From positions 1,240,001-1,304,000 of the forward strand of contig JAQTHY010000001.1 in NCBI GenBank assembly GCA_029433345.1: 64,000 bases of DNA, in the 5' to 3' direction. Below the pieces are notes generated by a model that searched no databases, had not been told where the DNA came from, and was given only the letters and a program-made list of their open reading frames with translations. Positions 5,411 through 60,867 of this stretch are shown here, in pieces (positions within the stretch are counted from its first letter, which is position 1; each line of letters starts with the position of its first letter). Origin of the DNA: Orbaceae bacterium ESL0727. Lineage in GTDB: Bacteria; Pseudomonadota; Gammaproteobacteria; Enterobacterales; Orbaceae. The position numbers and the translations under genes were made by a program.

Positions 5411-6766
5411 ATGCATTCACTCGATACAGAACATATCATGATCAGGCAAATAAGCCGTCCGATATTAGCCACTATTTTCTTATTTTATCTTCCTTTCTCT
5501 GCACAAGCGATCAGTCAATCCATTATCACAGCAAATACGATTCAAGGTAGCGCGCCATACTTGACCTTTGATGGGGGTGTAACCAAAGTAAATGATACCG
5601 TAGCGCTGCAGAGTATCACGTTATCTAATGGGCAAACATTCAACCAAGCAACTAACCCCTCATCGTCAACCCAACCTATCGAATTGCCAGTTGAAGGGCA
5701 AACCTTAGCCAATGTAACGATGTTTGTTCCCACAACTAGAGATTCTATTGACTTGAATGACCTGATTAGTTCACCGAATAATTTTTGGGGTGATGATGAA
5801 GGCGATGGTCAAGGTACTAATGGTATTACGGCGACAGGAACATTGTCTTTGCAGATAACTGATGCCAATGGTAATACTGTAAGACGGAATGATCAGTTAA
5901 CTTCTTGTTTACCTTATTATAAAATCACCTTAAGTAGCACGGCAGGGACATTAAAGACTCTGTATGGTAATCCTAATACTACGCAATTTGCGCCGGCAAC
6001 AACTGTCTACTACATTAAACCTAAACCGCCGACTAGGCCTTATGTTTGCTATGCTCAGCCAAGTTTAGCTTTTAATGGCGCAAATTATGCTGGACCGGCT
6101 AGCCAGTGGGATAATGCAAGGGGCTTTATCCCACAAAATATTAATAACCCTGCGACCAACTTCCCAACCGTTGGGGCCTATGCGCTCTTTTTTAATTTAA
6201 CAGTGGCTAATGGTAACTGGCAAGATATCAGTTATGATAAAACCCCAAGTAGTTCGGGGATAAGTATTACCATTAGCGATGGTGGTGCGACCAATATCGC
6301 TAAACTGTTTTTGACTGGCCCACGCTATAATACCAATAATGCAGCTACCGCTGTACCGACAACCTTTATTATCTATTCGGATAGGGCCAAAACTAATAAA
6401 ATCTACAGTTTTACTATCAGTAAATGGTTTATCACAACGCCTGGCAACAATACAGCGGGAATTTATCGATCCACTTATTGCCGTGATACCTATGGCAATA
6501 ATTACCGTATACCCAGTGTGGCAGAATACACTAATGCCAACAGCCCAGAACGGGGTTGGACCGGTGGGCTTGCTGGGCAAGGAAACAATTACCAACGGCG
6601 TATTGGGGGTGGATTATTATCTGAATGGGGACTGGTGAATACTCAAAACGGTTCTATCTACACGAGCAGCCACTTTGATTCGTATGATCTTTGGGCTATT
6701 GAGACGAATAGTCGCGGCTCGCAATTTTTGTCCATCAGAACAATGGCAGTATTGCTGATAGATTGA
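5411..6766 (+). CDS. Secreted SinI-like adhesion-domain protein A, frameshifted tail
   Basis: A 451-residue product with a signal peptide (IRQISRPILATIFLFYLPF, cut after SAQA) and no membrane anchor, so it is probably secreted or outer-surface associated. It is a paralogue of the proteins at 43499-44905 and 53958-55355: shared blocks are IQGSAPYLTF, IELPVEGQ, NNFWGDDEGDG, TASGT-type turns, RGFIPQNINNPATNFPT, FTISKWFIT and NNYQRRIGGGLLSEWG. These blocks recall the SinI autotransporter-associated/DUF823 family by memory only. The reading frame is broken near its end: at the T5 run 6725-6729 a one-base change restores ...FACVTP and a stop at 6814-6816, matching the GSCVTP end of protein B. AAGGA lies 8 bases before the ATG. 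Confidence 0.7.
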   Translation: MHSLDTEHIMIRQISRPILATIFLFYLPFSAQAISQSIITANTIQGSAPYLTFDGGVTKVNDTVALQSITLSNGQTFNQATNPSSSTQPIELPVEGQTLANVTMFVPTTRDSIDLNDLISSPNNFWGDDEGDGQGTNGITATGTLSLQITDANGNTVRRNDQLTSCLPYYKITLSSTAGTLKTLYGNPNTTQFAPATTVYYIKPKPPTRPYVCYAQPSLAFNGANYAGPASQWDNARGFIPQNINNPATNFPTVGAYALFFNLTVANGNWQDISYDKTPSSSGISITISDGGATNIAKLFLTGPRYNTNNAATAVPTTFIIYSDRAKTNKIYSFTISKWFITTPGNNTAGIYRSTYCRDTYGNNYRIPSVAEYTNANSPERGWTGGLAGQGNNYQRRIGGGLLSEWGLVNTQNGSIYTSSHFDSYDLWAIETNSRGSQFLSIRTMAVLLID

Positions 6767-6968
6767 CCGATACGCCAGTCGCGATGTATGGTCGTTTTGC
6801 GTGTGTTACGCCTTAACAGTTTTTTGCTTTTCTACTTTTTTACTTTTTTATGGCAGGATAGGTTAGCATTATAGGCAGAAAAAATAGATTAATAGATCAA
6901 TTCTTATCACTTTTTTATTTAATTTTATACAATTTATTTTATAAATTTAAAAAATATTTTATTAATCA

Positions 6969-43498: not shown

Positions 43499-44905
43499 AT
43501 GGATACACAATTAACCAATAATATGGCAAGAATAAATTCGTTATTAAAAAGGCCATTATTATCTCATTGGTTATATAATATTGTTTTTGGTTGTATTGTT
43601 TTTTCGACTAATGTTTCTGCATCATTGATTGCCGTGACAAGTAATAAAATACAAGGCCAAGCGCCATATTTTACACTTAATCAAGGACAAACAAAGCTGA
43701 CCACTCTGGATGAATTTTTAACTATTAAATTGTCGAATGGCGTTGAATATTCTATCGCGAATAATCCATCGCAAATTAATCATCCGATTGAATTGCCAGT
43801 TATTGGACAGAGTATGGCCGATGTCACGATGCAAATACCGGCTACGCTTGATAATGTTGCTTTTAATACATTTGTGAGTGATCCTTATAATTATTGGAAA
43901 GACGATAATGGTGATGGCAACGCAACCGCGACCGGGACATTAAGCGTAACAATTACCGATGTAAATGGTAATGCCGTTAATCGATCGACTACGTTAGATG
44001 GCTGTAATGCACCTTATAAAGTCAAATTAGCGAGTACCAATGTGACATTACGTACATTATATGGCTACACTAATAGTACCAACTATGCTGCAGTTAGTGC
44101 TATCTATTATATTAAGCCTAAAGTCGATACACCGTCTGCTTGCTTTGCTCAACCTAATTTACAATCACATGGACAAAATTATGATGGCCCGGCAAGCATG
44201 TGGAATGCAACGAAAGGTTTTATATTGCAATCATTGTCTGATCCATCAAAAAATTTCCCAACAATGGGGGCCAATAATCTCTTTTTTAATTTGACGGTTT
44301 CGGGCGTGTTTGGTAGTGACGTGACTTATAGTAAAACACCAAGTAATTCCGGGATTGATTTAATTATCGAACCTATCACTAATAAGAATGTGGCTAAGAT
44401 AACCTTAACTGGACCTAGCAAAAGTGCAACAGATGCGGTGGCTGCCACAGCCGTACCGACAACATTTACCTTATATTCTGACAGGGATAGAAGTAACGCA
44501 ATATATCGTTTTACTATCAGTAAATGGTTTATTGGTCAAGGTGATGATAAGATGACGCACACTCAATTAGCGTCACGTTGTAGTGCGATTCATTATCGAA
44601 TCCCCGATGTCACTGAATATACTAATGCCAATTCTGGAGCAAGTTATGGGAATTGGCAAGGCGGTTTAGCGGGCCAGCCGAATAATTATCAACGACGTAT
44701 CGGTGGGGGCTTGTTTGCTGAGTGGGGGAATACATCAACTCCTTACTATACTGGCAGTGATTATTCGAGCGGGGCTAATTGGGCGGCCAATGAGGGTGAC
44801 AACAGTTCTTCACGAACGTTGTATTATATTGTCAGTTCGAATATCGGGTTTATTAATATCTATGACCAAACTATGACTATTTTCGGATCTTGTGTGACAC
44901 CTTAA
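43499..44905 (+). CDS. Secreted SinI-like adhesion-domain protein B
   Basis: A 468-residue paralogue of the proteins at 5411 and 53958, and the clearest full-length member. The signal peptide spans about 18-42 (WLYNIVFGCIVFSTNVSA). Shared blocks are IQGQAPYFTLNQG, IELPVIGQSMADVTMQIPA, YNYWKDDNGDGNATATGTLS, GFILQSLSDPSKNFPTMG, YRFTISKWFIG, YRIPDVTEYTNAN and NNYQRRIGGGLFAEWG. Cysteines near 165, 210, 360 and the C-terminal SCVTP could form disulfides. GGAGG is 12 bases before the ATG. No inverse autotransporter gene is beside it. Family name (SinI/DUF823-like) is from memory and tentative. Confidence 0.7.
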   Translation: MDTQLTNNMARINSLLKRPLLSHWLYNIVFGCIVFSTNVSASLIAVTSNKIQGQAPYFTLNQGQTKLTTLDEFLTIKLSNGVEYSIANNPSQINHPIELPVIGQSMADVTMQIPATLDNVAFNTFVSDPYNYWKDDNGDGNATATGTLSVTITDVNGNAVNRSTTLDGCNAPYKVKLASTNVTLRTLYGYTNSTNYAAVSAIYYIKPKVDTPSACFAQPNLQSHGQNYDGPASMWNATKGFILQSLSDPSKNFPTMGANNLFFNLTVSGVFGSDVTYSKTPSNSGIDLIIEPITNKNVAKITLTGPSKSATDAVAATAVPTTFTLYSDRDRSNAIYRFTISKWFIGQGDDKMTHTQLASRCSAIHYRIPDVTEYTNANSGASYGNWQGGLAGQPNNYQRRIGGGLFAEWGNTSTPYYTGSDYSSGANWAANEGDNSSSRTLYYIVSSNIGFINIYDQTMTIFGSCVTP

Positions 44906-53957: not shown

Positions 53958-55355
53958 TTAGCGAGAGGAGACCGAAGTACAGATCCCATTTTTTGAATCT
54001 GCTTCACTAACACAGTGATATTTCGCATTATAAGTATGTAAATCACAATACTGATTTCTGCCAGTATCATATAACCAAATACGACGATATGCATTCCCTT
54101 GTGATGACGCAGCTGCCCATGAACCTGGATAAGTGGTTTGGGTCGGATCGCCCCATTCTCCTAAAAGCGTCCCTATTTCACGGGTAAAGTTTGCCGAACC
54201 TGCCGAATTACCAAATGGGGCGTTACTGACTTCATCAGAATTGCTGATACGGTAGATTCCAGGCGTGTCTAAACAACCTGCCACAACATTAGGTGCCGAT
54301 GTGGTATTGGCTAGATTTTTCCCTGCTTGATTTTTATCCCAACTGGTAAACCATTTAGTAATGGTAAACGGATACTCAATTTTATAACCGGTTGTTTTAT
54401 GGATACCTTGTACAAGAACAGAATAACCGGTACCCGAACCGATGACATAATTCCAAGCGGTTTGTGAACTGAGTGCGGCAGCTGTATTAAACGTGATAGT
54501 CACAACGTTAGCATTGCTTGTTAGTGAAGCAAGTTCATTGCCGCGTACCAGTGTCCAATTATATTGATTTGCCACCCCATCTTTAGCTAAAAGTAAATCA
54601 AATTTCGCACCATAAAAAGCAGTGGTAGGGAAATTTATAGCTGGATTGGTATGGGATTGTATTAAAAAACCATTTCTAGCATCCCATTGTGTGGCTGATA
54701 CCCCAGTTGCTTGGGTAGGATTCAATTCAGGTTTTGCATAACAAAATCCGGTATCTTCTAATATCGTATAAGTTCTCGACGGTTGGGTCGTCACAATATC
54801 ATTAGGATATGGCGTATTAATCGGATTGCCATATTTGGATGATAACAGTAAATTAGCGGAAACTTTTACTTTGAATGGACCGGCTTTCCCTGCTTTAGTC
54901 AGCGAACAGAAGGTGTCGGTAGCAGTAGGGGTAAATTCGACTAATTTATTAGTACTATCAGTATAGTACCATGTCATGCTTATCGGTGAGGTCGCCACTA
55001 AATCTTTGAATTCATCACCATCAAGATCAACATATTCACTACTGTTGGGTTGCTTTAATGGCGCAATTGCAAATTTATCTTTAAAGGGATAGGCTGTTAA
55101 TAAGAACATATTTTTGATATCATCACCATAATGGTTATTACCGTTAACAGCTAAACCAAAAAGATCAAGATTATCAATATGTGTTTCCATATCGGTTGTA
55201 AATGTTGGTCGATGGCCTTGCAATTCCTTGACAGTCGAAATATCTAAGGTTGCTTGACAAAGGGGGATTATGTTAAATAGCAATATGTTATAAAGCATTG
55301 TCTTTATAAATGCTTTTGAAACAAATTTTTTGCTCATAAAGCGACTTATTTTCAT
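53958..55355 (-). CDS. Secreted SinI-like adhesion-domain protein C
   Basis: A 465-residue divergent paralogue of the proteins at 5411 and 43499. The signal peptide covers about 14-35 (FIKTMLYNILLFNIIPLCQA). Shared blocks: LQGHRPTFTTDM, DGDEF, RNGFLIQSHTNPAINFPTT, YPFTITKWFTSWD, YRISNSDEVSNAPFG and FTREIGTLLGEWGDP. Unlike A and B it ends with a cysteine-rich tail (YCDLHTYNAKYHCVSEADSK). The frame opens at 55379, but ATG 55355 has AAGGA 6-7 bases upstream. It stands alone between nrdA and rarA. Family assignment is tentative. Confidence 0.7.
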   Translation of the reverse strand: MKISRFMSKKFVSKAFIKTMLYNILLFNIIPLCQATLDISTVKELQGHRPTFTTDMETHIDNLDLFGLAVNGNNHYGDDIKNMFLLTAYPFKDKFAIAPLKQPNSSEYVDLDGDEFKDLVATSPISMTWYYTDSTNKLVEFTPTATDTFCSLTKAGKAGPFKVKVSANLLLSSKYGNPINTPYPNDIVTTQPSRTYTILEDTGFCYAKPELNPTQATGVSATQWDARNGFLIQSHTNPAINFPTTAFYGAKFDLLLAKDGVANQYNWTLVRGNELASLTSNANVVTITFNTAAALSSQTAWNYVIGSGTGYSVLVQGIHKTTGYKIEYPFTITKWFTSWDKNQAGKNLANTTSAPNVVAGCLDTPGIYRISNSDEVSNAPFGNSAGSANFTREIGTLLGEWGDPTQTTYPGSWAAASSQGNAYRRIWLYDTGRNQYCDLHTYNAKYHCVSEADSKNGICTSVSSR

Positions 55356-55833
55356 ATTTTGTCCTTTTTTATTCACCATTGGTAAATAATTTATATTTAT
55401 TATTTTTAAATTTAATTTTAATTTTAATTTTAATTTGAAGAGATAACGAATTGTTCTTTATAAAATAATTTGATTAAAAATCATTACGGTAAGAGATCGA
55501 TTATTAAAAACTATCTATATCATTATTATCCTTCCTTAAAAATATCAATAATCATTGATGAATTATCTGTTTACCGTCTATAAATGAATAAAAAATAACT
55601 AATTCATATGATTAAGTTAATTAACTAACTGTGATTTGGTATGTTTTATTTTAGTGACGAAATGGAATTAAGTAAATAGATTATTTATATTAATTATTGC
55701 TAAATTGATAAAATATATAAAATATATAAAATAAATAGACTCTTAAAAGAGTTTAAGGGGCAATTTGTTTCTTTTTTTACGTGGGTGATAGGGTGATAAC
55801 GATGCTAAAAACAATGGTAAAAAATGGAGATTC
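55356..55833. other. AT-rich gap between SinI-like protein C and rarA
   Basis: About 480 bases containing TTTTAATTTTAATTTTAAT-like repeats near 55405-55435 and AAAATATATAAAATATATAA near 55710-55730. It must include the promoter of protein C. No gene or structured RNA was recognised. Confidence 0.4.
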
Positions 55834-60291: not shown

Positions 60292-60833
60292 TTAGTGAGC
60301 GTGAATCAAAATCTGTTTTTGTAGCTGTTGGCTATGCTGCAATGATTTTTGGATAATCGCATCGCGAGTATAACCCGAAACCGTTGAAACGCCATATAGA
60401 ATAATCAGTTCTAGATAATTCATTTGCGTATACATTGCCGATTTTCTTACTGATTGTAAAAAGTGATTAATTGTATTGTCGTTATCAGCGTAAAAATTTT
60501 TTTCAGGCTGCCCAACCGTTAAACTAACCAGTAATTTCTTGCCTTTTAATTTGTCCCCTTGTGAACCATACGCAAATTTATAGGTAAATACGCTATCAAA
60601 CCACATTTTTAAAATCGCGGCATATTAAACCAATACATTGGATATTGTAAAACAATCAGATCATGTCTTAGTAATGCCGCTTGTTCTTCTTCTATATTAA
60701 TTTGATAATCAGGATAAAGTTGATGAATATTACGGATTTCTGTATCAGGTAAATGTTGTTGCACACTTTCACTTATCGTTTTATTGGTAATGGAATGATC
60801 TATATCGGGGTGTGCTAATATCATTAATGTCAT
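60292..60833 (-). pseudogene. Flavodoxin-fold NAD(P)H oxidoreductase, frameshifted
   Basis: Two adjoining frames together encode one quinone-reductase-like protein (KefF/MdaB/YwrO group). The first (60833-60609) reads MTLMILAHPDIDHSITNKTI through LIVLQYPMYWFNMPRF and stops; the second (60606-60292) resumes with MWFDSVFTYKFAYG. Inserting one T in the TTTTAAAAA run (60614-60606) restores MPRFLKMWFDSVFTY and a 180-residue protein of normal length. AGGAGG precedes the first ATG. The gene is divergent from an HxlR regulator, a pairing typical of quinone or azo-reductase control. Real inactivation and sequencing error are both possible. Confidence 0.85.
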
Positions 60834-60867
60834 TATTATTCCTCCTAATTAGACTATTATTTTTATG

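Follow-up and report, generated by a model that had tools for sequence, protein, structure and literature searches.

A frameshifted paralog in an amplified, repeat-bearing family of putative secreted proteins of bee-gut Orbaceae

Within the 64,000-nucleotide stretch of the Orbaceae bacterium ESL0727 genome analysed here (the window; contig JAQTHY010000001.1, positions 1,240,001 to 1,304,000), the gene for a protein that we call A closes in one reading frame, and a second tail lies open in another frame beyond a run of five T residues. This arrangement raises the question of which of the two ends is the proper C-terminus of the protein and of what the change of frame represents: a phase-variable switch, a decayed gene, a second functional end or an error in the assembled sequence.

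The two ends of protein A

Protein A is encoded on the forward strand at 5411-6766 and, as listed among the open reading frames, consists of 451 residues that finish in IRTMAVLLID before a TGA stop codon, which is the end that the initial annotation had described. Its ATG is in frame and is located 105 nt upstream of the mature domain, with no repeat array at the 5' end. By our own reading the protein comprises a signal peptide, two Ig-like regions and a truncated C-type-lectin-like tip. At the T5 tract (TTTTT, 6725-6729, forward strand) the conserved tail leaves the frame of the protein body, as judged from the sequence, a frameshift-aware alignment and a census of tracts. Downstream of the tract the encoded frame yields a replacement end, SIRTMAVLLID followed by TGA (6731-6766, forward strand), and the other frame carries a family-type tail, IFVHQNNGSIADRLTDTPVAMYGRFACVTP, that runs to a TAA stop codon at 6814-6816 (6724-6816, forward strand) and has YGRFACVTP as its final residues. 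The frameshift-aware alignment of A with its closest relative contains a single lesion, which falls within the T tract at about position 6728 of the window, and zero internal stops; it thereby confirms the change of register that had been proposed at the T run, with the exact position of the lesion inside the tract being arbitrary. The closest relatives that we found for A, at 64% identity, are encoded by Orbaceae bacterium ESL0721 (genome G004), and the source genome, ESL0721 and Gilliamella sp. wkB171 (G013) belong to one genus.

Two paralogs of A lie in the same window. Protein B (43499-44905, forward strand) is uninterrupted, ends in GSCVTP and is 48% identical to A over 426 columns. The third paralog (53958-55379, reverse strand) is a distant one of 473 residues, with a BLAST E value of 1e-10 to A. 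The gene for B stands between genes that we take to be mprF-like and aldo-keto reductase-like. Elsewhere, family members occur near an mprF-like gene in loci L023, L024 and L025 and near an aldo-keto reductase-like gene in L028 and L029, so the site of B may be an old family locus. The neighbours of A, presumably priA- and clpB-like, did not recur next to any of the family loci retrieved, and its site therefore allowed no comparison across species.

The relationship of the other-frame tail to the rest of the family was assessed with a profile of C-termini built from 29 hand-picked family ends, that of protein B included. Against this profile the tail of A, taken as a separate piece, scored 16.5 bits (E 0.001). 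Over 1,819 ends of open reading frames in the window, only the end of B (23.4) and the tail of A extended by one residue (16.7) outscored it, with the encoded end of A at 8.5 (part of the body included) and no end other than those of A and B above 6.0. The nearest tails to that of A come from the ESL0721 relatives, with ends such as RFACITP and RFACVTP. Moreover, a cysteine is located among the last six residues of 58 of the 60 distinct long single-frame family members (loci L021-L093), and the two members that do not have it (in L055 and L063) are broken genes themselves; the background for such a cysteine is three of the 41 stop-to-stop window reading frames of at least 150 residues, B being one of these three. 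Taken together, the profile ranking and the cysteine in 58 of 60 members indicate that the other-frame tail is the C-terminus of the family and not a chance frame, so the earlier observation that this tail, with its conserved cysteine, matches the end of protein B was right.

Predicted fold of the C-terminal region

Protein B was predicted to fold with a mean pLDDT of 78 (66-89 in the last six blocks; a weak stretch at residues 379-402 falls below 50). Residues 211-468 of this predicted fold superimpose on residues 795-985 of Yersinia invasin (1cwv) with a Z score of 16.1 and an rmsd of 3.0 for 182 aligned residues, and on residues 753-939 of EPEC intimin (1f00) with a Z score of 14.1 and an rmsd of 3.1 for 171 aligned residues. 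The best structural match besides these two has a Z score of 7.7. In a Foldseek search with B, intimin ranked first (E value 6.7e-07), although its TM-scores, 0.28 and 0.43, were modest. The prediction for B thus shows an Ig-like domain followed by a C-type-lectin-like domain, the fold of the invasin/intimin tip, as the modelled C-terminal part of the family. As in the tips of invasin and intimin, the predicted Ig-like and lectin-like fold of B continues to the C-terminus and has a cysteine near its end. In contrast to these adhesins, the family profile had no sequence match to any PDB chain up to an E value of 10, and A and B are short and showed no match to PF11924, the beta-barrel that marks inverse autotransporters. 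The source genome does contain one PF11924 inverse autotransporter gene (G000:C2:127650, locus L059, an open frame of 881 residues on contig C2), the product of which is a possible partner of the secreted family.

In invasin and intimin, a disulfide near the C-terminus closes the lectin-like tip. Both candidate disulfide cysteines, one in the YCRDTYG stretch and one at the C-terminal end, are conserved in the family. The segment that is absent from A corresponds to the last three strands of B (residues 439-446, 452-456 and 464-466) together with Cys466. When A was folded as encoded, its Ig-like regions mostly had pLDDT values of 80-95 and residues 344-372 and 392-451 were below 50; the alignments behind the two folds had 10 and 9 rows, B has a weak stretch as well, and AlphaFold judges truncations poorly, so this low confidence agrees with a loss of the tip and supports it but does not decide the matter.

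The name "SinI-like" that the initial annotation had given to A was not confirmed, and the predicted fold points instead to the invasin/intimin tip. A likeness of A and B to the "SinI family autotransporter-associated protein" of Salmonella is, we presume, plausible by name alone. A and B match no NCBIfam or Pfam model above chance; for all three paralogs of the window, both collections gave sub-threshold matches only. Over the rows of the family alignment, the same collections returned one weak Invasin_D4 match (E 0.049, one of ten rows) and a "spurious translation" repeat model in two of ten rows (E 2.3e-07), a model that marks translated repeat arrays. The phrase "SinI family autotransporter-associated protein" was not found in the literature searched.

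Repeat arrays at the start codons of the family

Tandem arrays of 4-, 7- or 8-nt units adjoin the start codon in 61 of 131 distinct 5' ends of family members, with a 7-nt unit in 47 of them, an 8-nt unit in 10 and a 4-nt unit in four. These 5' ends came from loci L080-L093, L094-L153 and L060-L078, with 20 members each from genomes G026, G006 and G022, and only ends that agreed over all 120 bases around the mature start were merged, which leaves near-identical loci (for example L052/L055/L058 and L037/L054) counted apart. The layout in ESL0721 is a ribosome-binding site, the ATG, a perfect tandem array of 7 to 26 copies of a 7- or 8-nt unit and then the signal peptide. Arrays of 2.7 to 4.4 copies of a 7-nt unit are present in 12 of 20 members of G026, seven of 20 of G006 and 13 of 20 of G022, the unit being mostly common within a genome, and three G006 members carry 20 to 26 copies of a 4-nt unit. 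Across the whole ESL0721 genome, one 8-nt unit occurs at four sites, three of which are family gene starts and the fourth of which precedes a partial family match by about 1.2 kb. In the source genome, an open frame of 1,556 residues (L074:1019-5686) has several stretches that match A and an 8-nt array of 8.4 units near its 5' end.

All 61 arrays are open in all three frames. Over the stretch from the array to the mature domain, the frame of the gene is open in 59 of 61 cases, and the other two frames are open in one and two of 61, respectively. An in-frame ATG between the array and the mature domain is absent in 58 of 61 (GTG and TTG were not counted). Relative to the gene, the start ATG of the 61 array-bearing units is in frame in eight, out of frame in 49 (in nine of these, all from G022, a further ATG at the edge of the array is in frame) and in frame with an intervening stop in two; two units have no ATG. 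The corresponding numbers for the 70 units without an array are 39 in frame, 19 out of frame, 11 in frame with a stop and one without an ATG, where the automatic choice of start codon was crude and several of the 19 and 11 look wrongly chosen by eye. Among neighbouring genes in G006, three have 3.4 units and are out of frame and one has 4.4 units and is in frame. The copies of one ESL0721 locus (L052, L055, L056 and L058) have 25, 25, 26 and 25 units and are 95.0-98.6% identical, with for example 105 gaps in 9.3 kb; as weak evidence, their unit differences may reflect either slippage or duplicate, poorly corrected contig ends.

By its sequence, this combination of array and start codon has the anatomy of translational phase variation, and switching of the genes is predicted from it. 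The region around the ATG also contains TTGACA and TATAAT-like stretches in several genomes, and it may include a promoter; the 59 of 61 cases with an open gene frame, against one and two for the other frames, and the lack of an in-frame ATG in 58 of 61 nevertheless lead us to prefer the start-codon reading. Contingency genes with tetra- to octanucleotide repeats are found, for example, in Haemophilus and Neisseria. The family resembles such genes, as they are described in a review (PMC11868660), in that many members have an ATG adjoining a 4-, 7- or 8-nt array, a coding frame that is open behind it and an ATG that is in or out of frame. It differs in its host genus, which is an insect-gut symbiont group, and in the case of A, which has no array and has its lesion at the 3' end. 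Both A and B lack a 5' array and start in frame; A is therefore no contingency gene of the kind seen in the family, and its T5 tract bears no likeness to one. We found no report of phase variation or of tandem-repeat contingency loci in Gilliamella in the literature searched, as judged from listings, and absence there is not absence from print.

Probable erosion of the family and the lesion in A

Searches with A gave 36 matches in its own genome, nine rows of which contain internal stops. By hand count from the alignments, 15 of 23 family units in this genome are broken, 13 by a frameshift or stop and two present as fragments only; the 23 units are A and 22 others, with the 1,556-residue multi-domain protein and the distant third paralog excluded. 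The lesions include stop codons and large deletions, which homopolymer errors do not make. In ESL0721, four of 22 units are broken in the body (Fisher p 0.0023 against the 15 of 23, from hand counts of paralogs that are not independent). When five ESL0721 frameshift flags in the array/signal-peptide region are added, the count becomes nine of 22 and the contrast is weak (Fisher p 0.14). Three of the four ESL0721 units counted as broken are 95-98% identical copies that differ by numerous small gaps and resemble contig ends of poor quality. Among the matches listed for G004, G006, G022 and G026, internal stops occur in two rows.

Two of the eight open units of the source genome have no start ATG before their array. 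The array-bearing paralogs L060 and L067 of this genome showed no ATG ahead of the array from which to start, and by their sequence they are apparently locked off. Three sister genes of A in the source genome (L063, L066 and L078) change frame where the conserved EWG codons form a run of G residues (G6, G5 and G7), which makes this run a possible slippage hotspot.

We consider it moderately likely that A is a recently inactivated paralog, truncated by a real indel, in a redundant family that is eroding in this genome. According to this explanation, A would be one member of a family, large and amplified, whose secreted proteins have an invasin/intimin-type tip, and a one-base indel, probably from replication slippage in the T5 tract, would have shifted its last ~30 codons. 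The product would keep the two Ig-like regions, but its tip would lack the last three strands as well as the terminal cysteine, which, if invasin and intimin are a guide, would form a disulfide with the cysteine of the YCRDTYG stretch. The tip of the truncated protein would not fold, and A would most likely be inactive as a result. Its loss would be tolerated because many paralogs remain and because the genome sheds the family generally, and the event would be recent because there is a single lesion and the tail is still open over 30 codons to the family motif. Against this, a lone lesion of this kind would also be expected from a sequencing error.

Such an error, in base calling or assembly of a short homopolymer that in truth belongs to an uninterrupted gene, is the strongest alternative, and we regard it as unlikely, if not to be neglected. 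Besides the nature of the lesion, one base in a homopolymer, it is favoured by the absence of a T5 at the aligned site in relatives, by the three paralogs whose frame likewise changes in the G residues of the EWG codons and by the occurrence of low-quality assembly ends in the genus, for example in ESL0721. The window also has a second frameshift of the one-base type, in a Flavodoxin_2 gene (60295-60848, reverse strand), where two overlapping frames meet around 60612-60624. On the other hand, 36 long reading frames of the window stay open with 310 A/T and 17 G/C tracts of at least five bases, a census that is biased in that a broken gene would leave the list; what breaks many sister genes is a stop codon or a large deletion; and the genome is rated 99.96% complete in two contigs. 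As far as mutS and mutL show, both being present and stop-free in the five genomes examined, a defect in mismatch repair was rejected as the source of homopolymer indels.

There is a slim chance that the short end serves the protein as a second, functional C-terminus, or that ribosomal recoding yields both ends, as the other-frame tail is still open. The conservation of the cysteine end in 58 of the 60 distinct long single-frame relatives argues against an alternative end. A canonical slippery heptamer follows the rule X XXY YYZ, to which CAA TTT TTG does not conform, and the RNA 3' of the site shows no exceptional folding (z -0.54, with an equally good fold in 60 of 200 shuffles). On these two grounds, programmed ribosomal frameshifting at the T5 tract was rejected.

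A phase-variable switch of the C-terminus of A at the T5 tract, the first of the possibilities (phase variable, decayed or a base-calling error) that the initial annotation had named, is highly improbable: a G5 tract in Pseudomonas aeruginosa mucA is a known -1 hotspot (PMC2781719), and switch-like repeats occur elsewhere in the family, but the mucA precedent is from a mutS-deficient strain, whereas mutS and mutL are present here; the tract is commonplace, with 219 A/T tracts of exactly five in the 36 reading frames; it is below the length of seven or more given for the homopolymer contingency set of Campylobacter jejuni (PMC4965091); a T5 or longer tract occurs within 12 nt of the aligned site in none of 29 relatives and so has not been conserved across the family; and the family arrays are at the 5' end, where A has none. 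The short tract, its absence from 29 of 29 relatives and the presence of mutS and mutL thus make phase variation at this site unlikely, and of the possibilities named it is decay that gains support. The frameshift itself is probably ordinary, that of a decayed paralog.

The frameshift of A matters as a pointer to a repertoire of secreted invasin-like proteins in bee-gut symbionts that spans many loci and looks phase-variable. We think it likely that bee-gut Orbaceae, Gilliamella among them, encode tens of secreted paralogs with an invasin/intimin-type tip, a large part of them with start-codon arrays of 4-, 7- or 8-base units through which each gene could be switched by slippage, and that this repertoire is decaying in the source genome, with the array-less, frameshifted A as one casualty. 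If true, an insect symbiont would have a large phase-variable repertoire spread over many loci. The family around A merits a study of its own.
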